NCBI GenBank assembly: GCA_021432635.1
Contig: MU270072.1
Span: 1 to 64,000 of the forward strand
DNA: 64,000 nt
Origin: Thozetella sp. PMI_491
Taxonomy: Eukaryota; Ascomycota; Sordariomycetes; Chaetosphaeriales; Chaetosphaeriaceae
Direction of reading: 5' to 3'
A program made the translations under genes and the position numbers. Of this stretch, positions 37,233-50,468 are shown piece after piece (position 1 is the first letter of the stretch; every line of letters starts with the position of its first letter). The notes under the pieces are model-generated. The model was not told the DNA's origin and made no database searches. It worked only from the letters and a program-made list of their open reading frames with translations.

Positions 37233-38510
37233 ATGACGACCCCTCTGAAAGTCCTCATAGTCGGCGGCGGCGTGGCCGGGCCATCCTTGGCGTATTGGCT
37301 TTCACGCCTCAACACCGATGTGACCGTGATTGAACGGTTCTCACAGATGCGCGCGAATGGCCAGCAGCTCGATCTCCGCTCCCATGGTGTGCCTATGATG
37401 AAGAAGATGGGCATGGAGACCGCCGTGCGCGCGGCCGCCGTCCACGAGCCCGGCATGCAATTCATCGACCAGAACGGCAAGACAAAGGCTTACTTCCCAG
37501 CAATTGCCACAAACACGTCAAAGCAGAGCATGACATCCGAGTTCGAAATCATGCGCGGGGACATGGTCCGAATCCTATACGGGCTCACCGAGAACAACCA
37601 GAAAGTGCGGCACGTGTTCGGCACTAGCGTCAAAGACCTCAGGCAGGACGATGAGAGCGATCCCAACGGCAAGGTCCATGTGCGTTTCTCAGATGACCGT
37701 GAAGAGGACTTCGATCTTGTTGTCGGCGCCGACGGGAGTGGCTCCGCCACGCGCAAGATGATACTAGACCCTGACGCACCGGACCCACGGGAGTCGCTCG
37801 ACGCGTACATAGGGTGGTTCACCGTCCCGGCACGGCCCGGAGACTCAGACCGGTGGACCTTCTGCCACCTCCCAGGCCGTAGGAGCATTGGCACCCGACG
37901 AGATTGCGCTGATGTGGTTCGCGTTTACATGATACTCGCGGGACGGAAGCCCGAGCTAGATGCGGCCCATAGATCGGGAAATCTAGCAGAGATCAAAAAC
38001 GCCTGGACCGAGCTCTATCGGGATGGCGGCTGGGAATCCAAGCGATTTATGCACGACCTTTTGCATGCCCCGGAGGCTGATGATTTGTACTCGTGCCGCA
38101 TCGAACAGATCAAGCTACCGGAGGGAGGCTGGTCGAAGGGCCGAATTGTCCTCCTTGGAGATTCAGCTTTTAGTCAGGGCCCGAATGGACTCGGCGCCAG
38201 TCTCGGCATGGTAGGCGCATACGTGTTGGCAGGTGAGATGGCGACGCTGGCTGAGACGAACAAGACTCCCTTGGCGGAAACGGTAGTGCAGGCCGCGAAG
38301 AACTACGAGGCCAAGATCCGCCCGCTGATTAAGATCACCGAGGGGGGATTCCCCTCCGCGCTTGCTGCCTTTTTCCCTCAGTCAAACCTTGGCATCAAGG
38401 TCCTGCAGACCGTGCTTGGGGCGGCCGCGTTCCTACGCATTAACCAATGGGGTTCGCCGGCGGAGAAGTCGGAGAAGTGGGCGCTTCCTGAGTACCCTCT
38501 GCTCAGCTAA
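37233..38510 (+). CDS. UbiH-type FAD-dependent monooxygenase
   Basis: Single exon of 425 residues from the ATG at 37233. The FAD-binding GxGxxG-type motif VLIVGGGVAGPSLAYWL starts at residue 5. The DG motif (LVVGADGSGSATRK) lies in the middle, and the GD motif (RIVLLGDSAFSQGPNG) near residue 310. Together these identify a class A flavoprotein hydroxylase like salicylate, urate (HpxO) or tetracycline (TetX) monooxygenases, using NAD(P)H and O2 on an aromatic or heterocyclic substrate. The substrate cannot be read off. The frame is open for 61 further codons upstream (ATG at 37050); that extension is basic and Ser/Thr-rich and could be a mitochondrial presequence. The 37233 start fits the family. 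Its neighbours are RidA and the esterase cluster. Confidence 0.85.
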   Translation: MTTPLKVLIVGGGVAGPSLAYWLSRLNTDVTVIERFSQMRANGQQLDLRSHGVPMMKKMGMETAVRAAAVHEPGMQFIDQNGKTKAYFPAIATNTSKQSMTSEFEIMRGDMVRILYGLTENNQKVRHVFGTSVKDLRQDDESDPNGKVHVRFSDDREEDFDLVVGADGSGSATRKMILDPDAPDPRESLDAYIGWFTVPARPGDSDRWTFCHLPGRRSIGTRRDCADVVRVYMILAGRKPELDAAHRSGNLAEIKNAWTELYRDGGWESKRFMHDLLHAPEADDLYSCRIEQIKLPEGGWSKGRIVLLGDSAFSQGPNGLGASLGMVGAYVLAGEMATLAETNKTPLAETVVQAAKNYEAKIRPLIKITEGGFPSALAAFFPQSNLGIKVLQTVLGAAAFLRINQWGSPAEKSEKWALPEYPLLS

Positions 38511-39083
38511 AGGCACCATGAGGCCAAGGGCACGTCATCTGGTGCAACAGCCAGCCAGACAGACAGGCTAGTGTATTATACGAAGCTGAAATCTGATGTT
38601 GCAAGTTCAACTGTAGTATTAGCCGCTTAGCTGGTACCTCTCCTATTCATTCTAGAATATAAAACACTGAAGGTTTAGTTCTTCTTGGCTGGGTTAATGA
38701 CACAGTCAAAGGTTCGAAGAAGCTTGATCTTTTCGCTTCATGTCTAGGAATATACATTTCAACTGGACACATTCAGTGGGTGGAACCAAGTTCTCTATAC
38801 GGATTGGTATAAGTCAAGTAGCTATGGTGCTAATTTGAGCTATAAATCGCTCGTGGATTTCGTCCATTATTGCCCCGTCTTTTGTTTAGCCGAATTTTGT
38901 TTACCATTCCTCATACCCAGACGTAACGATGCGCCAGATCCTTGATGCGATCGCCCCACTGATCACTGACGTGAAGAGCATGTCGGCCGAATGCACAGGA
39001 ATTGCTGTACGCTTAGGAACTTCGTTGCGATCCTGGAGCCTCTCTACCCCAGTGATGCGGACGAAACACGCCCAATATGTAAT
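38511..39083. other. Intergenic between convergent genes
   Basis: 3' ends of the FAD monooxygenase and the RidA gene. No gene recognised; the sequence is AT-rich. Confidence 0.55.
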
Positions 39084-39611
39084 CTAGAGGACGGCGGTAC
39101 ACTCAATCTCGACGTCAGTGTTCAGCGGCAGCGTCTTGACAGCGACGCAACTGCAGTACTCGTTAGCCTGTGCCATACGTAGCGTGGGCGGGGAGGATGA
39201 GAGGGTCAAACGTACGTCCGGCAGGGCTTAACGTCACCCCAGTAGGTCGAGTAGACCTCGTTCATGGCAGCAAAGTCGTCCATGTTGGCAAGGAAGACGT
39301 TGACCTTAACGACCTTCTCGATGCTGGAACCGGCCTTCTCGAGGATGGCAGTGAGGTTCTTGATGCATTGGTGCTGGGGCCGTGCAGTTAGCACCTGGCT
39401 CCTCTTTCCACTCCTCCTAGGGCTCGCGTTCGCCGAGAAGCTCGCTTACCGTGTGCGCCTTGATGTCACCGTCGATCAGCTTGCCGGTCTCGGCGTCCAT
39501 GGGGACGGCGCCCGAGACGAACACCATGCCGTTGGCCACGATTGCCTGGCTGTAGATGCCGGGCAGAGGCTTCGGGGCCTTGTCGGTAAGAACGGCGGTC
39601 TTGGAGGCCAT
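39084..39611 (-). CDS. RidA/YjgF/UK114 family enamine-imine deaminase
   Basis: Three exons on the minus strand: 39611-39450, 39373-39216 and 39150-39084, giving 128 residues, exactly the usual length. The start TDKAPKPLPGIYSQAI, the middle VSGAVPMDAETGKLI and the block HQCIKNLTAILEKAGSSIEK are family signatures. The catalytic Arg is in DVKPCRT, next to the last splice junction, and the C-terminal DVEIECTAVL completes the fold. RidA proteins hydrolyse reactive enamines and imines released by PLP enzymes and by heterocycle catabolism, in cytosol or mitochondria. No presequence is obvious. The neighbours suggest a catabolic role, but a housekeeping role is equally possible. Phases and splice sites fit throughout. 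Confidence 0.92.
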
Positions 39612-40748
39612 GGTGATGCGATGTTGACGGTGATGCTAGTTTCGAATCTGAACTTCGACGATGTCGAACCCCAAAAAGCTACCCCTCGCGAGGAACCCCT
39701 CCCTTTTAAATCGCGGCATGCTCCAGAGGATTGGCCCGCAGCTAACCGGCTCAACTGTGCTCCGCCATTAGGGTTCAGGGATGGCTCTGGACCTCAGTCC
39801 CACCGCATGCGTCTGCGTGTCTCCACGTCGCCGCCTAGTGGAGATAAAGAGCTCCTCCGCCCCTCCGTCGCTCCCCCGCTCAACCCCCCACGGTCAGCTA
39901 CAGCCCACGTAGCTTCGGCCTCCCACGTACTACGTTACTTGCGTGGGTATGCGTGGGAGGCAGTTCCCCACGTAAGCGGGGCGGTCATGGTTGCTCTTGG
40001 GCAGCCTTCAAGGGGTAGCCTAGGGGCGAAATTGGTCTAGGCGGGCAATGAGCAATGCCCCCACTGGATAGATAGATATCGTAGCTGTCTTGCGAGATAT
40101 TAGTAACTTCCTAGATATTAGGAGTAATGCAATCATGCGAATAATCTCAGCCTATCAGAGATTAATGGTTACGCTTCACGACACTACTCTATGTCTTTGT
40201 GACCCTTTACCCTAAGAAATATATGACGTTAATCTTTGCCTTGCATTCTTTGTTATTTTTGAAGCACTCTAGATAGAGCCCAAGGCATTGCACGCTGCTT
40301 ATACATATAGAATAGATGCTTATGTAGATGGATGCTATGGCATGTATGTATACTGTCTATGCACATACAATACAACCCCTATTTATTTGTTTGTCTGTTT
40401 GTTTATTGGCGTGGGAATTAAAAGGCCACTGTCTTCATCAGCAAGGTATTTGACCCAGAGACAGGGGAGTTCACACAGCTAACAGGGAGCCAAAAGGGTC
40501 AAGAACAACCATGAAGGGGCTAAATCATGCTCTGTTAGGCTGCTCCACCCCAGGACATCCATTGACTTGGCATGCATGCTCTATCTATGCTAAGCCGTTT
40601 CAGTAGCATAAAAATGTCTAGCCCTGACTAAAGATAGTAAAACACTGTGTCCACAGGCTCCCGCTTGAGTATAACACACGGTGCCGTTCGCCTTGTCCCA
40701 TCCTACATTCTATTATCCTAGAAACGTGACACGCTCGGGCTCTCGCCC
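39612..40748. other. Intergenic
   Basis: Promoter of RidA and 3' side of the esterase. GC-rich and Pro/Arg-biased in the left part, AT-rich from 40060 on. A GCGTGGG/CCCACGT-rich imperfect inverted repeat lies near 39900-39975. No gene recognised. Confidence 0.5.
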
Positions 40749-41856
40749 CTATTGCGTCGCTGCTGCGAGGCTGTCGCACAAAAGCGTAACTCCCTGCCTA
40801 CCCTTCTCCAAGACCGCATCCATGACGAGGAAGACGTGCGGAACTCCCTCGATCACCTTAACATCGGCCTTCACCCCAGCAGCTGTCAGCTTACGCGCAT
40901 ACTCCTCGCCCTCCCACCGCAAAACATCGAGTCCAGACACGACGATCAATGCCGGGGGCAACTTGGCCCACTTCTCGGGATCGGCCTGGAGCAGTGGGGA
41001 CGCCTCGACATCCGTCCATGTTTTCTCATCAGGGAGATAGTGTCGGCGGTACCACAACATCTTAGGCACTGGTAGTGCGGGTGTGTGCTCATACGCTTTG
41101 TAAGTCGGGCTCGTCTCGACCGTGACCGAGTTATCCGTGACGGGGACGGTGAGCATCTGGAACTTGAACCCGGGGAAACCCGAGTCCGCGGGAAGATCTA
41201 GCACCTTCTGCGTCATGATGGCTGCTAGGTTGCCGCCGGCACTGGAGCCGCCGATGCAGAGTTTGTTGAAATCTAGGGGGTGCTTGAGGGCCTCCGCGAG
41301 GCCGCCGAAGCCCGCCCACAGCACCGTTTCCCAAGCATCATGTACAGCAGCCGGATAGGGATGTTCCGGGGCAAGCCGGTAGTCAGTAGTAACCACTACG
41401 CACTTTGCACGAGAACAGAGATTCGTGCAGAGACTATTCTCCGAGTCGATATTCCCCAGCACCCAGCCGCCTCCGTGGTACCAGAGAAATACTGGCCACC
41501 CGGCAGCAGGGGGGGTGCCAGCTGGAACGAAGACGCGCACTGGGACTGGTGGGCCCTGTGTCTCGCGCCTCGCGATCTGAAAGTCTACTGTCTCGCCCAC
41601 GGGCACATTATCCGTACCTCCCTAGGTATGACTGTCAGCAATTTGCTCTCAAATTTATATCGCTAAAAATATCGAGAGGGCCTACCGGAATTATTCTGCC
41701 GCCTACGCGCGATGCAGAAACCGGTTGGTGATGTGTCTGCGGTGCATTGAGCAGGTACTTGTTGTAGAAGGCAGCATACTCCGGGTCGACTTGGTCCTTG
41801 ACGGAGTCGTGGAGGGGATACGGAGGCGGAGGGATGGGAGCGCTATCTCCAGACAT
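40749..41856 (-). CDS. HSL-type alpha/beta hydrolase (esterase/lipase)
   Basis: Two exons on the minus strand, 41856-41686 and 41621-40749, give 347 residues. The oxyanion-hole motif HGGGW (near residue 106), the nucleophile motif GGSSAGG, a catalytic Asp in SGLDVL and the closing catalytic His in PHVF are in the order of bacterial family-IV/hormone-sensitive-lipase-type esterases. The substrate would be a short-chain ester or lactone. No signal peptide is seen, so it is probably cytosolic. It is divergent from a C2H2 regulator with 369 bp between the two starts, making joint control plausible. The intron (41622-41685) keeps phase 0. Confidence 0.88.
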
Positions 41857-42225
41857 TTTGGGCTATTGATTGGATGGTATGCCACTCGGTTTGTTCTAGA
41901 AAGCGTAGAAGGCTCAGGAGGCTAGGCAAGTCTCGTCTCACATGGAACGGGTAAAGTATACACAGACCAGACAGCGATAGTTATCCATGTGAAATGGTGG
42001 AGAACCATTAGCGGGGGCGTCCTTGCGTGGGATCGGCGTGGGCATCACTAGTCGGCCAAGCACGACTCAGGAAGATAAGGCGGGAGGAGGCCCACCAGAA
42101 ACCAGACCAATGCCCACTTCATCCGACCAGAGGAAACAAGTTTCCATCCCACACAATGCCCGCTCAGTATGCACGAACTTGCCCAGCTGTCTGTGTCAGG
42201 CAAACAAGTGCGCCAATCCGCCGTG
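41857..42225. promoter_or_regulatory. Shared divergent promoter of esterase and C2H2 regulator
   Basis: 369 bp between two outward-facing ATGs. Short frames on the plus strand read through it but have no family features. I infer a bidirectional promoter; no individual operator is assigned. Confidence 0.45.
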
Positions 42226-44628
42226 ATGGCGTATAGGTGCAGTGAATCTGGATGCTCCTCGGTCTTCAAGCGGCCGGAGCATCTGAGCAGACACAAGCTC
42301 AACCGTAGGCTCCACCCTCCCCCGCAAAACGCGTCTCCGTAGGCCCCCGGTCTGACGATGCAGTCACAGACAAACCCCGGCGCATCTACCAATGCGACCT
42401 CTGCGGCAAGGACTTTGTGCGCCGTGATCTCCTGCGGCGCCATGCCAGCAGGCACGAGCGTGGCATGTCGTACCGCAACTCGGGCGGCTACTCCAACACG
42501 GGCAGGCCTGATTCGGCGACCCCTTCAGCACCCGTGACCCCGTGCCCGACGGTATTATGCGAGCCGGTGCAGCCGCCCCCGGACCAACAGATGCAGGATG
42601 CAGTAGCACCCGAGGCTACACCAGCGGATACTGACCAGGGGTTGCCGCTGTCGCCGCCACCAGTGCAGGTACAAGACGGCCTCGAGATGCCGTGGAGCTC
42701 GGATCCAGAGTACTATACCTTCTTCGACGGCCCCAGCGACGCCGGCGGCTTGACGCAGGATCTGGACTGGCTCTTCGGCCATAGCCCTAATGATGGGTCC
42801 TTTGACGCCTTGCGAGGGCTGCAGGTCAACAGTGTCCATGTGGCTGTCACGTCGCCTGGGTACGAGACGTCATCGCAAGGGTCACTGCCCGCATCTTACG
42901 CAGATGCCGCCTATCTGTTGCCAAGGGAGAGCATCCTCGCGACGCTAGCTTCCCTGCCGCCTAACATCCTCGGGTCCTCCTTCTTCGACGCAGCCAATCT
43001 CGACATGTTCATGCGGAACTACTGGCGCCAATTCAACCCGCACTTCTCGCTGCTCCACGAAGCTTCATTCTCGGTGCAAGATGCGCCACCGCTGCTTCTC
43101 CTATCGCTGTTGACCCTAGGGGCGACCTTATCGCCGGACGAGGAGCATTATGCCGTAGCAGAACATGTCCACCAGAACCTCAGGTCACTGATCTTTGCTG
43201 TTCGTATCCTGTACTTCCATGTGCTACTCCTACTCGGGTACGCAGCGTATCCATGAATTTTGCAGCTAACAAAATATGCAGTCCCCCTGGTTCCAGCCTC
43301 CTGCTCCGCTATGGGTCGTGCAGGCACTACTGGTCGTCCAAGCTTACGAAAAGATGTTTTCTTCTCGGAAACTTCATGAGATGTCTCATGTCTTCCACTA
43401 CTCTGTCATTACGGTGAGCTTGCTCCTGCCGAAGTATTAAACAGGCTCTCGAGTACGGCGGCTAACATTGGCAAAGCTCATGCGCAGGGGAAGCTCGTAT
43501 TCTCCCGATCGAGAGGACGAAGGCGAGATCTCGTCTACTGAACGCGCTTGGCACAGGTGGATAGAGCGCGAGTCGTCATATCGTGCGGCCTACTTTGCAT
43601 TTATCATGGACGCGCAGCATTCGTCGATATTCGGGCATACCGCGGCCTTGTCACTCAGCGACATCCGGCTTCCACTCCCATGTGCCGATGTTATCTGGGA
43701 TGCGGCAACAGCGACACAGTGGGAGAGGGCACGCGCCCGCACCGCGCCGCCGCCGCAGTTCTTAGCTGCTCTCAGGGCTCTGCTATCACGCCGCCCAATC
43801 CCGCAGAGCTACAGCCCTTTTGCGAGGTTTGTGCTCTTGCACGGGCTCCTGTGCGTCACAAGGCACATGATAACTCGCGACCAAACTGCTTCTTGCATCA
43901 ACGTCGCCGGCCAGCCACCGCCCGACATCGACTCTGGCGCGTCGACACCACACGAAGACCACGACAACTGGAAGGACCGCCTCGACCGAGCGATTGATAC
44001 ATGGTCTCTCAGCCTGCTTAGCCAGGCTCCATCGCTCTGTCTCGAGGCGGCCCGTCCTCTCCAACGCATCGCCCACGTGGTCATCCACATTTCTGTGTTG
44101 GACTTCCACATCCTGGCCGGCGCGCCGAATCTGGCAACAGGGACGCCAGTGCGCACCGACAGCGCTGAGTTCCGACGAGCTCACAAAAAGGTCTTGGAGT
44201 GGGCGCGCCACCGAAATGCCAAGCGGACACTGAGCCACTGCCTGATGCTGATACAGGAGATCATGTTCACGCGCACCAGATATCTGGCCGTTGAAGACAA
44301 TATTAGCCTCCGTCCGTGGGTGCTTTACCATGCGACACTCGTGCTCTGGGCATATGGCGCGATCGTGGAGGCTCATAGCGGGGCGACACGGGAGGAGGGG
44401 GAGGCGGAGCTCCGCTGGAGCGCCGAAGAATACCTGGCTCATATGTTGAACGAGTTGATGGGAGATGGAGAACTGGCACAGCTGCAGGGCGCCCACTGCA
44501 CTGGTGGGCTGATTCTTGCGGTGAGGACTGCTCTGGAGGGATGCAGATGGGAGCTACTCAGAGAAGCACAGGAGACACTCGGCAACCTTTTAGAGAACCC
44601 TAGTCGTTTGAAAGCTCGAGTTGAATGA
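42226..44628 (+). CDS. C2H2 zinc-finger transcription factor with Fungal_trans domain
   Basis: Four exons: 42226-42304, 42370-43199, 43282-43413 and 43477-44628, giving 730 residues. Two adjacent C2H2 fingers occupy the N-terminus: YRCSESGCSSVFKRPEHLSR in exon 1 and QCDLCGKDFVRRDLLRRHAS just after the first splice, with the linker HKPRRI rebuilt across the intron. The C-terminal ~450 residues hold the fungal-specific regulatory domain, with PPAPLWVVQALLVVQAYEKM and the MRRGSSYSP stretch as its recognisable blocks. This two-finger plus Fungal_trans layout is a known class of fungal pathway regulators, including nicotinate-utilisation HxnR-type regulators as I know them. The third intron donor (GTTCGT) is weak. 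The likely targets are its neighbours. Confidence 0.87.
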
Positions 44629-44641
44629 ATATCTATCGTAA

Positions 44642-45719
44642 CTATCCCGCGAACTCATACTTGGCCACTCCCTTGACGCCGTGCGCCGTGTAGCGGAACA
44701 TGTGGCCGCCCTCGTCGTTTTCCCTGACGGCCTGCCCTTTCCTGTCCTTGCCCGTCGCAACAAACAAAATGTTCTCTTCTTTTCCGCCCCACGTCGTGCA
44801 GGCCATGTGCCGCGCGGAGAAGATAATATCTTTGAGGTGGCGCCCTTCGGGGGAAAACACCATTACCCGGTTCGAGTCAAAAACCGCAATCCATAGGTTC
44901 CCCTCAGTGCTATACTTGCATTAGCGCGGCTTTACTAGGGCTGTCAGGGCTGTTAGGGCTGACTTACTCGACGACCATGCCGTCGGGCTCGCCGAAGCTG
45001 TCCCGGCGGTCGATGAAAAGACGCTTGTTGGTGATTGCGCCGGTCTCTACGTCGAAGTCGTACTTGAAAACCATCATCGCCACGGAGTCGTTCACATACA
45101 CTACAAGTTGGTCAGTCCCCTGTTCTCGCAAAGAAAAGACACCGGAGGAATACATACTGTACTTGCTGTCGGGACTCCACGCAAGTCCGTTGCCGCAGAT
45201 AAATCCCTTGTCCATCATATGCAGAGACCCGTCAGGGTCGTACCTCCAAAGTCGGCCGATCGGCTCGCCGTAGGTCTTGGGGAGCTTGTTCGGCCCGAAC
45301 GCCATGGCCTTGACGTCGATCTCGGCCAGCCAGAAGCGGCCCTTCGCGTCGACACCGCCGTCGTTGAACCGCAACTTGTCGCGGTCCTCGGTGGGAATGA
45401 TCTCCTTGACCACATCCAGCCGCCCCGTCTCCTCATCCAGAAACGCTACGCCCTGGTAGTAGGCGCAGATGTAGCTGCCAGGCTTGTCGCGCCGGAAAAA
45501 GTGTACCGTGACGCTGTCGGCCAGCTTGAGCACGCGCGCGCGCCCTATAGCATCGCCATTGTCCGGATCCACCTTCAGGATGTGCATCTCATCGGATAAG
45601 CAGTCGACCCAATGCAGGGTTGAGTCGCTCTTCCGGTAGATGGGCGCCTCGCCCAATACCATGGGCTGGTCGCAGTAGTACCAGGCTTGGCCGCCTTGGA
45701 TCACTTCGAGGCCAGCCAT
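44642..45719 (-). CDS. SMP-30/gluconolactonase/LRE-like lactonase
   Basis: Three exons on the minus strand: 45719-45158, 45100-44968 and 44909-44642, giving 320 residues. The start APIYRKSDSTLHWVD is the first blade of an SMP-30-type beta-propeller. The metal-site residues are in FNDGGVDAKGRFW, in GNGLAWSPDSKYMYVND (restored across the first intron), and in the final GMVVDTEGNLWIAV (across the second). The family are Ca2+/Zn2+-dependent lactonases that open sugar or other lactones. No signal peptide is seen. Its stop codon lies only 13 bp from the stop of the convergent C2H2 regulator, so the two 3' UTRs must overlap. Confidence 0.88.
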
Positions 45720-46290
45720 GTTGACGGTGTGTATGGATACGTCGAGGATGCGGCGATGTCCGTTCCTAACATATGCGTTAGGGTACGGCAGATCGGTCTA
45801 TTTACTCTCGTTTGCTTATTAGTCCATCCCGCACGTTGATCTGTTACCTAACAAAGAAATGGGGTGTTATCAGTACGTCACGAGTCAGGTGCCCGCGACC
45901 ACGACCCGCATGCCCACGCTGCGCGCAGCGCCGCCGTACTAGCTACCCTTGATGCCCCGGATTAATATGCCCGCGCAAGAGTGCTTTGTCACCTGTGATA
46001 CCAAGTGCCAAGTGCAGATTGGGCGATAGCGCAGGAGCCTAGTGCGCTCTCGACCAAGCCAATCTCACCATACCACCACCAGATAGGCCCGTTGGTCCTC
46101 AATTGGCCTGCGTGTTGCATCTAGCTAGGTCGGCCGGAGGAATATCCAATCTAATTATCTGTGAAAGACGCAGCGTCGAAGGTCGACTATTTTCCTGGGT
46201 CTATAAGGGCCAGCCGTGTGCCATTGAAAACCCACCCCTGCACAACACCAACCATCCGACGCGTCCTCCCACAGCACAAGCAAAACGGCA
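45720..46290. promoter_or_regulatory. Divergent promoter region of SMP-30 gene and NCS1 permease
   Basis: 571 bp between outward-facing starts. It includes three matches to the AreA/NIT2 HGATAR consensus (45867-45872 minus, 46024-46029 plus, 46155-46160 minus). That count is close to chance, so it is not evidence by itself. No coding signal seen. Confidence 0.4.
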
Positions 46291-48074
46291 ATGTCGACAT
46301 CGACCGACCACGATCTCTCTGGGGAGAAGAAGACCTGGCCCCAGAAGGTTAAGCACGCCTTCAGCTCTCCCAGCAACTTCCACGACGCCATCGTGCTCAA
46401 GAGCGCGACCTCAATCCTCGTCAACGAAGACCTGCTTCCTTCGCCCTCGAGCCGTCGTACCTGGACGACTTGGAGCTTCTTGTCTTTCTGGTGGTCGGAG
46501 AGCTGGAATGTTTCGACATGGAGCGTGGGAGCGTCACTAATTACCATCGGAGCCACCATCCGGGATGCCCTGCTGATCGTGCTCTTCGCCAACCTCCTCT
46601 CGGCCGTCGTTATTGTGCTCAACGGCTTTGCCGCTTCGCGCTACCACGTCGGCTATCCAGTACTCTCTCGGACGAGTTTCGGTGTCTACGGGCAATACTT
46701 CGTCGTGGTGCTGCGTTCTATCCTGGGCATAGTGTGGTGCGGCGTCCAACTCTACTTTGAAGGACAGTTCATTAGCATCTGTCTGCGCTGCATTTTCCCG
46801 TCCTGGACCGAGATTCCAAATGGAATCCCCGCTAGCCAGTTCATTACAACACAGGTCATGGTTGGCTTCTTCCTCGCCTTTCTCTTCACCATTCCCTTCC
46901 TATTCCTGCACACGTCTCGCATCCAGCATTTGTTCAGCGTCAAGTCGTTCGTGCTGCCACTGGCCGGCCTAGGAATTGTCATTTGGGCCACCAAAAACAA
47001 CGGTGGCGTCGGAGCTGAGGCGTTGGAGACCCAGGCAGCGGCTTCGCGATCCTCGGTTGCCGTCTTTGCCTGGGGGCTTGTCGCTCAGTTCAATTCTGTC
47101 ATGGGTGCCAACTCGGCGTTGCTGGTTACCATTCCCGACATCGCTCGCTACTCCAAAACTCGTAATGCTCAGATCTGGGGACAGCTGATCGCGCTGCCGC
47201 TTGGGCAAATTATGTGTGCTGCTTTCGGAATCATCAGCACGGTACGTTGGCTCTCCAGACTCCCCAATGATATGCCTAAGACTCATTCGCGATTTAGTCT
47301 GCCGTGATGAACCTCTATGGCGAAGCCTACTGGAACCCATACGACCTGCTCAATGGCATCCTCGACCGCTCCTATACCTCTTCGGCTCGCGCTGGCGTCT
47401 TCTTCGCCTCTGCCAGTTTCGCCTTTGCTACGCTTGGCACGTCGATCGCCTGCAATATTATTCCCTTTGCCGCTGACGCGACTTGCCTGCTGCCAAAGTA
47501 CCTCAACATCATCCGCGGCCAGTTCCTGTGCCTCATTGTCTCATTTGCCATCGTCCCCTGGCGTATCCTTACCTCCGCCTCCGGTTTCCTCAACTTCCTC
47601 GGCGGCTACTGTATCTTCCAGGGGCCGGTAGTTGCCATCATGGTCGTGGACTACCTGATTCTCCGACGCGGAAACCTGAACCTCCCAGACATGTATACTC
47701 TCTCATCTGAAGGCCGCTACTACTTCTTTAAGGGGTGGAACCTTCGGGCTTTCGCCGCTTTCGTCATCGGATTTCTCCTGCCTCTTCCTGGCTTTATTGG
47801 GAGCTTTGGAACGACGACGGTGTCGGAGGGCGCGACACACATGTATACCCTTGGGTGGGTTCTGAGCTTTCTTGTTGGTGGCCTCGCTTATCTGGTCATC
47901 TGTTTGGTTTTCCGCCTTCCCGGGGACGATGGGGAGCATGGATTCGAGACGGTCTCAGCTGAGTACACAGATTTCGAGCACGGCGGTGTGCTTGATGGAG
48001 AGTATGTAGCGAACGCCGATGGCAGCTACGCAAAGGACAGTGGAAGGAAGGAGGAGGGTACTGAGAGCGTGTAG
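46291..48074 (+). CDS. NCS1-family permease (nucleobase/uracil-allantoin type)
   Basis: Two exons, 46291-47241 and 47298-48074, give 575 residues. The N-terminal phrase NEDLLPSPSSRRTWTTWSF followed by WNVSTWSVGASLITIG is the classical NCS1 Fur-type signature before TM1. Twelve hydrophobic segments follow, with YPVLSRTSFGVYG in the middle and the PKYLNIIRGQ block in exon 2. NCS1 carriers take up uracil, allantoin, uridine, thiamine, nicotinamide riboside or related compounds with protons. The substrate is not decidable here, though Fur-type NCS1 members in fungi mostly transport pyrimidines, purines or allantoin. The intron is phase 0 and 56 nt. Confidence 0.9.
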
Positions 48075-49012: not shown

Positions 49013-50468
49013 ATGCATAAGAACTGCCGCATCGTCATCATCGGTGCTGGGGTCTTTGGGCTCAGTACGGCATTACAGTTAAGGAAAAACGGATTCAATA
49101 ACATCACCGTCCTGGACCGACACGTACCTCCTGTATGTTATACCTTTTTCTTCCAAGAAACCCATGATTGCTAAATATTAACTACCAGGTACCTGACGGT
49201 TCAAGTGTTGATATATCGAGGGTTATCCGGTTTGACTACGCCGATCCAGTATATGCCAATATTGCAAAAGAATCGTTCGATCTCTGGACTACTACTCGCT
49301 ACAAAGACTTCTTTTTTCCGTCGCCATTCACTCTTGTGGCAGAGAATCAACAGGGTCGCTCTTATATTGAGAAATGTACCAAATATCTCACTGGAGCATC
49401 GCTGCCGTGGGTGCCGTTCGAAACTCCTCGCCAGACTAAAGAGGCCTTCCCAACGCTGACAGGGCCATTGGGAGATTCCGACTTCTCCGGATACTGTAAC
49501 TTTGCAGCAGGATGGGTCGATGCCCAACGGGCCATTACGTCATTGCGCGACGAATGTTCGCAGCTTGGAATCACCTTCCTATGCGGTTCCGGGGGCACAA
49601 TGACTGGATACCACGCCGATATTACTAGTGGAAAAGTCCAAGCAGTAAGGACTAAAGACGGGGAGTCAGTACATGGCGACCTCTTCATCATGGCCACCGG
49701 CGCATGGACTTCAAGGCTTGTTCCAATGTACAACTCCATCCTCGCCACTGGGCAAGTTGTCGGTTTCCTCAAATTAACAGAGGCTGAGGTCAATCGCTAT
49801 AAAGACCTTCCCATATATATTAACTTTAGTACTGGCTGGTTCTGTTTTCCGCCGCATGAGGAATCCAAGTATCTCAAATTTGCGGTTCACGGATATGGAT
49901 ATACAAATACCGCTGAGAGAGGGGAAACCTTGGCAGACGAACTCAAAACGTTTAGCAGCAACGCTGATTCGGAGACGGTTGACGCATTGTCGGCACCTCC
50001 AACTAGACCTGCTATGCAGCGTGCGAATTTTGCGCCTCTCGACGGCATCCGCCGACTTCGAGAAGGGTTAGGAAAGATTCTTCCCGAGCTTTCTCAACGC
50101 GAGTTTGACCGGACAGCGGTATGCTGGTACACCGATACACCCAGCGGAGATTTTATTCTAGACTATCACCCAGACCACGCAAATCTCTTTCTTGCTACCG
50201 GGGGTAGCGGACAGTAAGTTTCATTGCTCCTTGAGTTATACATGGTCTTTTTCCGGTCTAAAATCTGTTCTGTAGCGCATTCAAGTTTCTTCCAGTCCTT
50301 GGAAAGTATGCTGTCGAAGCTCTCTCGCGAAACCTTCCCGAGAAATTGGTCCAAAGATGGAGGTTTCGACGAGAGTATAGAGACGCCAATAACTTATTCG
50401 ATGGTGATGGGAGTCGAGGTGGTCCCTCTAGAAGGGAGTTTACTGCTAAGGAGAAAGGGAAGCTCTGA
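49013..50468 (+). CDS. FAD-dependent amine oxidase of the MSOX/amadoriase type
   Basis: Three exons: 49013-49132, 49189-50213 and 50276-50468, giving 445 residues. The FAD-binding GxGxxG motif IVIIGAGVFGLSTALQL starts at residue 7. Near the C-terminus AVCWYTDTPSGDFILDYHP contains the Cys that links FAD covalently in monomeric sarcosine oxidase and fructosyl amino-acid oxidases, followed by ATGGSGHAFKFLP, the second FAD-contact block. The set identifies the MSOX/L-pipecolate/amadoriase family, which oxidises secondary amines with O2 and releases H2O2. There is no obvious C-terminal peroxisomal SKL; the protein ends GKL. The true substrate (sarcosine, pipecolate, Amadori product or another secondary amine) is unknown. 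A Zn2Cys6 regulator lies tail-to-tail 143 bp away. Confidence 0.86.

Follow-up and report, generated by a model that had tools for sequence, protein, structure and literature searches.

To our knowledge, only a small number of fungal clusters that break down nitrogen heterocycles have been described completely, among them the hxn nicotinate regulon of Aspergillus nidulans. Here this regulon and some bacterial systems are compared with a locus of Thozetella sp. PMI_491 (contig MU270072.1, C58 in our numbering), at which six intact genes lie side by side at positions 37233-48074 of the window, that is, of the whole stretch of DNA analysed, the first 64 kb of the contig. The genome comprises 72.3 Mb in 157 contigs, and the introns together with the Fungal_trans and Zn-cluster genes of the window mark it as fungal. 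The six genes encode a flavin monooxygenase that uses flavin adenine dinucleotide (FAD), a RidA imine deaminase, an HSL-type esterase, a C2H2 regulator, an SMP-30 lactonase and an NCS1 permease, and they had been proposed from the sequence to share an uptake-and-degradation pathway.

In the parts of the hxn paper on which we draw (PMC8478523), HxnR controls a nitrogen-regulated fungal cluster, its predicted site is GHGGGG, and table 1 of that paper gives it two C2H2 fingers and a Fungal_trans domain, the architecture found here. Those parts show two further points of likeness or interest: oxidoreductases, hydrolases and transporters are clustered, and hxn is under control of a GATA factor (AreA). 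The hxn cluster differs in its molybdenum nicotinate hydroxylase and its MFS transporters (PMC8478523, same parts). No molybdenum hydroxylase of the hxnS family was found among the 30 open reading frame (ORF) stretches of the window that were scanned, the rest of the genome not having been searched. The main text of PMC8478523 contains none of the words permease, lactonase, esterase and RidA. For RidA, the cited portion of PMC4433059 reports that the protein hydrolyses imines produced by an amino acid oxidase, that its conserved arginine is essential for imine hydrolysis, and that bacterial Rid genes cluster with genes for FAD amine oxidases.

Gene content and conserved residues

Gene models were spliced with GT..AG introns, keeping the frames intact, and checked against Pfam; NCBIfam and PDB comparisons covered the five cluster proteins other than the regulator. 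The models agree with the original prediction that six genes of different families adjoin in the order given, and they bear out its tight group of four in divergent, convergent and divergent orientation. The intergenic gaps computed from the models are, in order, 573, 1137, 369, 13 and 571 bp, the last three separating the esterase, regulator, SMP-30 and NCS1 genes. A permease, enzymes and a pathway regulator thus stand next to one another, as in fungal catabolic clusters of the hxn kind.

Our tentative explanation, to which we give slightly less than even weight, is that the esterase, C2H2 regulator, SMP-30 and NCS1 genes, probably with RidA and perhaps with a FAD oxidase gene that begins 938 bp past NCS1, form a small nitrogen-controlled catabolic cluster for a nitrogen-containing nutrient. 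Such a cluster is plausible because four genes are packed tightly around a pathway-type regulator, because positions associated with activity are kept (four of regucalcin, three of four of Mhp1 and the RidA arginine), because the closest RidA and esterase paralogs are linked on contig C18 with an NCS1 gene nearby, and because GATA-type sites (HGATAR) are in excess in three core promoters. The clustering of Rid with FAD amine oxidase genes (PMC4433059) and the cluster under HxnR (PMC8478523), as described in the portions cited, provide precedents.

The conserved positions are as follows. The regulator carries its two C2H2 fingers near the N terminus (residues 5-27 and 35-55), followed by a Fungal_trans domain (242-523). 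In the SMP-30 protein, E24, N119, N177 and D227 align with E18, N103, N154 and D204 of regucalcin, which we take to be metal and substrate positions; these four are held in common with the regucalcin/SMP-30 gluconolactonase at a modest overall similarity (E 4.3e-31). The permease belongs to the NCS1 carrier family by PF02133 (164.9 and 147 bits for its two exons, against a gathering score of 23.5), while falling under the TIGR00800 cut-off (336.7 bits vs 353.1). Compared with NCS1 carriers such as Mhp1 and the fungal Fur group, its W149, Q153 and N370 align with Mhp1 W117, Q121 and N318, which are three of what we presume to be four substrate positions, and L263 stands in place of Mhp1 W220. 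The esterase contains HGGG at 106-109, S184, D289 and H319, which are presumably its functional residues. RidA is of the archetypal type (TIGR00004, 149 bits, above the cut-off of 106.25), with R106 conserved within CRTC at 105-108.

The FAD oxidase is nearest in PDB sequence matches to fructosyl peptide/amine oxidases and then to sarcosine oxidases. No pyridoxal phosphate (PLP) enzyme was seen around the cluster among the ORFs scanned, and the oxidase would be the natural source of an imine for the cluster RidA, by analogy with the bacterial clustering of Rid and FAD amine oxidase genes (PMC4433059, cited portion). The closest paralog of the oxidase in the genome, at C10:387-396 kb, has a weak SGL match at a distance of about 7.5 kb.

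If the genes act together, the NCS1 carrier would act as a proton symporter and bring in a small cyclic nitrogen compound, which the esterase and lactonase would open or trim by hydrolysis. The FAD oxidase would then produce an imine, and RidA would hydrolyse this imine with release of ammonia. The C2H2 factor would induce the cluster genes, with a GATA factor derepressing them when nitrogen is short. The families and active-site positions are observed in the gene models; the steps of the pathway, and that they are shared, we infer. A still more specific version is unlikely, namely an as yet undescribed fungal nitrogen-scavenging pathway with a Fur/Mhp1-like permease, a ring-opening regucalcin-type lactonase and HSL hydrolase, a FAD amine oxidase with a dedicated RidA, and HxnR-like plus GATA control, in which RidA and the esterase would form a module that is used more than once, here and at a D-amino-acid-type locus on C18.

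Genes and promoter regions at the locus (window coordinates; lengths in aa for proteins and bp for promoter regions)
Feature	Position	Strand	Exons	Length	Matches or sites
Cytochrome P450	34474..36306	-			Pfam p450; coordinates without intron model; own-genome paralogs
Class A flavin monooxygenase, tetracycline-destructase-like fold	37233-38510	+	1	425	Pfam FAD_binding_3 8.7e-17
RidA imine deaminase	39611-39084	-	3	128	Pfam Ribonuc_L-PSP 7.6e-39; PDB matches
RidA upstream region	39612..40411			800	4 HGATAR sites, 8 GHGGGG motifs
HSL-type esterase	41856-40749	-	2	347	Abhydrolase_3 6.5e-61; PDB matches
Esterase/regulator divergent promoter	41857..42225			369	2 HGATAR sites
C2H2/Fungal_trans regulator	42226-44628	+	4	730	Fungal_trans 3.6e-51, zf-C2H2 4e-8
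SMP-30/regucalcin-type lactonase	45719-44642	-	3	320	SGL 1.2e-58
SMP-30/NCS1 divergent promoter	45720..46290			571	4 HGATAR sites
NCS1 permease	46291-48074	+	2	575	Transp_cyt_pur 3.5e-48 and 9.5e-43 (per exon)
FAD oxidase, possible extra member	49013..50468	+	3	445	Pfam DAO

Candidate nitrogen control

The background for HGATAR sites came from the window and 25 other loci of the genome and consisted of 109 stretches, 117 kb in total, in which no ORF reaches 150 aa. Together the three core promoters hold 10 sites, against a background mean of 4.6 (P = 0.035; P = 0.0075 against dinucleotide shuffles). The gap between NCS1 and the oxidase, a region added post hoc after its count had been seen, holds 8 sites (P = 0.006), and with it the four regions reach 18 against 7.2 (P = 0.001). 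In nine further intergenic regions of the window, selected by eye, 35 sites were counted in 11.8 kb, or 3.0 per kb, compared with 5.7 per kb in the core. The promoter between the P450 and monooxygenase genes shows no excess (2 sites, background 2.5). As sequence motifs, the GATA-type sites weakly support nitrogen control over the stretch that runs from RidA to the oxidase, while their lack of excess beside the monooxygenase is a hint that this gene may lie outside the nitrogen-controlled group.

The predicted HxnR site was also counted. The 800-bp region upstream of RidA contains 8 copies of GHGGGG; 1.5 are expected from dinucleotide shuffling, and none of 400 shuffles reached the observed number. 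If the guess of an HxnR-type site carries over to this regulator, the distribution of the motif over the core promoters, which is taken up below, lends no support to control of the entire core by a single regulator.

Related loci elsewhere in the genome

NCS1, SGL and RidA loci were placed genome-wide by family search, with hits less than 3 kb apart merged, which gave 48 NCS1 (a count that tandem genes or exon pieces more than 3 kb apart may distort), 14 SGL and 22 RidA loci. Esterase, monooxygenase, regulator, P450 and oxidase loci were placed by protein query at differing E cut-offs; the merged counts for the first four were 22, 8, 11 and 14. The counts do not take in whole families and may include split genes. 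Forty-eight NCS1 loci would make a large family for one fungus.

The closest relative of RidA in the genome (74-91% identical per exon) lies at 904.9-905.4 kb on C18, and that of the esterase (50-55%) at 911.0-912.1 kb on the same contig, about 6 kb away. The chance of this is about 2e-4 for two given genes and 0.003-0.006 when all pairs and a near-equal esterase on C29 are allowed for, a rough and post hoc estimate. An NCS1 gene (PF02133 E 1.5e-11) follows at C18:924 kb, 12 kb further on with other ORFs between, so that RidA, esterase and NCS1, three of the six families, occur within about 20 kb. Searches for monooxygenase, regulator and SMP-30 genes gave no match at the C18 RidA/esterase locus. 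We read C18 as a partial echo of the cluster, not as a second copy.

The C18 locus has a character of its own. Between 901 and 914 kb (L009:3529-9048, L010:25-5871) it brings together an MFS carrier, RidA, a DHDPS-family gene, a gene with a D-serine-dehydratase domain, the HSL esterase and a Zn-cluster regulator. A RidA beside an imine-forming PLP enzyme is to be expected at this locus. The cited part of PMC9537276 describes the bacterial ong cluster, for an oxidised chitin sugar, with a D-amino acid deaminase and a RidA protein, and the C18 combination of PLP deaminase, RidA and DHDPS-type gene recalls it. By this analogy, C18 is a candidate fungal D-amino-acid or amino-sugar-acid locus.

Proximity of the families outside the window was assessed for seven families (21 pairs, two distances), the oxidase not being among them. 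NCS1 and esterase loci lie within 15 kb of each other three times, against 0.47 expected (P = 0.012, which fails correction for 21 tests). The NCS1 genes beside these three esterases, on C18, C20 and C25, are of another subgroup than the window permease, because their PF02133 matches are weak and they do not match the window protein at E 1e-10. At C20:214-226 kb and C25:67-74 kb the distance between the esterase paralog and the NCS1-type gene is no more than about 5-10 kb. Among the paralogs of the window permease, the closest (about 40% identical) is on C12 (L021:18-5720), near an amidase and a class I/II aminotransferase. Another paralog, on C88 (L022:4539-7809), adjoins an arylmalonate decarboxylase family gene (PF17645), a possible nitrogen or malonate locus.

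Edges of the locus and competing explanations

The frame of six genes is an earlier reader's choice, and its edges are arbitrary and no natural boundary, because a P450 gene and the FAD oxidase gene adjoin it and the wider window holds further such genes. The 30 ORF stretches scanned also include two P450s, an MFS carrier, a short-chain dehydrogenase, a peroxidase, an S9 peptidase and two Zn-cluster regulators; therefore such gene company is not rare here. Within the frame, the 1137-bp gap between RidA and the esterase contains a dispersed short repeat at 40359-40525. This repeat has 36 other matches in the genome (up to about 160 bp, 72-88% identical), its left edge is sharp in the 8 aligned copies, and it gave no tRNA or Rfam match.

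The monooxygenase was compared at several levels. Its AlphaFold model, with a predicted local distance difference test (pLDDT) score of 90.5, matches the fold of the tetracycline destructases Tet(50)/(51)/(55)/(56), and by this modelled fold they are the nearest to it, a family missing from the list of fold matches not thereby being excluded. The destructase family score is not reached (NF033476, 153.9 bits vs 550), and a common fold does not identify a substrate. Among the NCBIfam models NF005761 fits best, and it too stays below its cut-off (182.7 vs 454). The UbiH-type assignment made earlier did not hold, with scores of 47.2 bits for the TIGR01988 model (cut-off 224.65) and 36.6 bits for TIGR01984 (cut-off 392.2). 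Nicotinate chemistry had been considered for the enzyme from the PDB molecule name '6-hydroxynicotinate 3-monooxygenase' of 8twg/8twf and was dropped, as the titles of these entries name the tetracycline destructases Tet(56-2)/(56-3).

Bacterial and archaeal genomes were scanned with an alignment of the monooxygenase and four own-genome paralogs, and for the best 80 of 564 confirmed relatives the neighbourhoods, mostly 6-kb flanks, were queried with the window proteins at E 1e-4, a threshold at which distant family members could be missed. Relatives of RidA, SMP-30, NCS1, the regulator or the oxidase were detected in none of these 80 neighbourhoods, and a weak esterase-type match was seen in two. 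The neighbourhoods lend no support to a bacterial Rut-like parallel.

Such a parallel, or one with urate-type catabolism, had been suggested in the original prediction and is highly improbable. The enzyme classes are similar on paper: the bacterial Rut pathway also has a monooxygenase, a Rid protein, an alpha/beta hydrolase and a permease, and the positions that the NCS1 protein shares with Mhp1 fit a cyclic amide substrate. However, RidA falls far below the RutC model (TIGR03610, 74.6 bits vs 169.1) and the monooxygenase far below the HpxO model (NF033623, 85.5 bits vs 500). The Rut monooxygenase and permease are furthermore of other families than those found here, RutA being luciferase-like and RutG an NCS2 carrier.

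A possible account, on which we place about a third of the weight, is that two units abut: a P450-monooxygenase pair that would oxidise xenobiotics or secondary metabolites, and, apart from it, a hydrolase/permease cluster with RidA or the esterase at one end and NCS1 or the oxidase at the other. The P450 gene is divergent from the monooxygenase gene with 926 bp between them, their promoter lacks the GATA excess, and monooxygenase and RidA are convergent, 573 bp apart. A monooxygenase paralog at C18:309 kb (52% identical) has a P450 within about 3 kb, and one on C10 is likewise near a P450. Yet the window P450 has its closest paralog at C19:903 kb and not at C18:309 kb, and the monooxygenase-P450 pairing within 15 kb outside the window is a single case (1 vs 0.05 expected, P = 0.048, failing correction for 21 tests). 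One 9-base word is, moreover, common to the P450/monooxygenase, RidA and SMP-30/NCS1 promoters, where 0.16 such words are expected. The two-unit account overlaps with the partial catabolic cluster that we prefer, which leaves the monooxygenase open; with its P450 neighbour, this gene is as likely a bystander as a member, and its membership is unproven.

Chance company is nearly as likely as the partial catabolic cluster: unrelated genes of accessory metabolism, each with its own role, would have come to lie together in a large genome where such families abound. Several observations weigh against the catabolic cluster, and some of them speak directly for chance. Other window genes are of the same broad kind, NCS1 and RidA are common in the genome, and SGL and esterase-type loci too are numerous at the counts given above. 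No other locus in the pair count repeats more than three of the families, C18 being the only one with three, and no bacterial counterpart was detected around the best 80 of the 564 monooxygenase relatives. At C18 itself, two genes (the DHDPS-family and D-serine-dehydratase-domain genes) stand between RidA and the esterase, the NCS1 gene does not match that of the window at E 1e-10, and the esterase paralog on C29 is almost as close as the C18 one; in the window, RidA and the esterase are parted by the 1.1 kb with the dispersed repeat. The GATA-type sites are also open to a less favourable count, because 12 sites against 7.2 (P = 0.086) result when the P450/monooxygenase promoter replaces the NCS1-oxidase gap, two of the nine other intergenic stretches reach 4.0 and 5.0 sites per kb, and the background stretches hold some coding sequence, which possibly lowers the background. 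GHGGGG occurs once in the esterase/regulator promoter and not at all in the SMP-30/NCS1 promoter, and words of 9 to 12 bases common to at least two promoters show no excess over mononucleotide shuffles. Chance is in turn opposed by a core that is very tight around a regulator and a permease, by the GATA-site excess in the three core promoters and by the linkage of the closest RidA and esterase paralogs.

The earlier claim that all six genes share a catabolic pathway therefore stands in part. The families, the arrangement, the regulator and permease within a tight core, the archetypal RidA and a weak GATA fit speak for it; nothing so far places all six genes in a single pathway, which is unproven, and C18 repeats three families only. 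No title or abstract opening found in the open-licence literature describes this gene set, subscription papers lying outside that search. Three papers were set aside as matches. In the cited part of PMC10512309, on the lactam/lactone response of Fusarium, an induced salicylate hydroxylase is clustered but the induced L-PSP and SMP-30 genes have distant locus numbers; PMC7842363 names RidA only in its reference list; and in the cited part of PMC5371717 the NCS1 and SMP-30 genes have distant locus numbers.

At present the locus ranks with the many such candidates that large fungal genomes contain. Should the core prove to be a real cluster, it would provide a defined regulator, permease and enzyme set for identifying a new fungal nitrogen source, and an example of a RidA that serves a single pathway.

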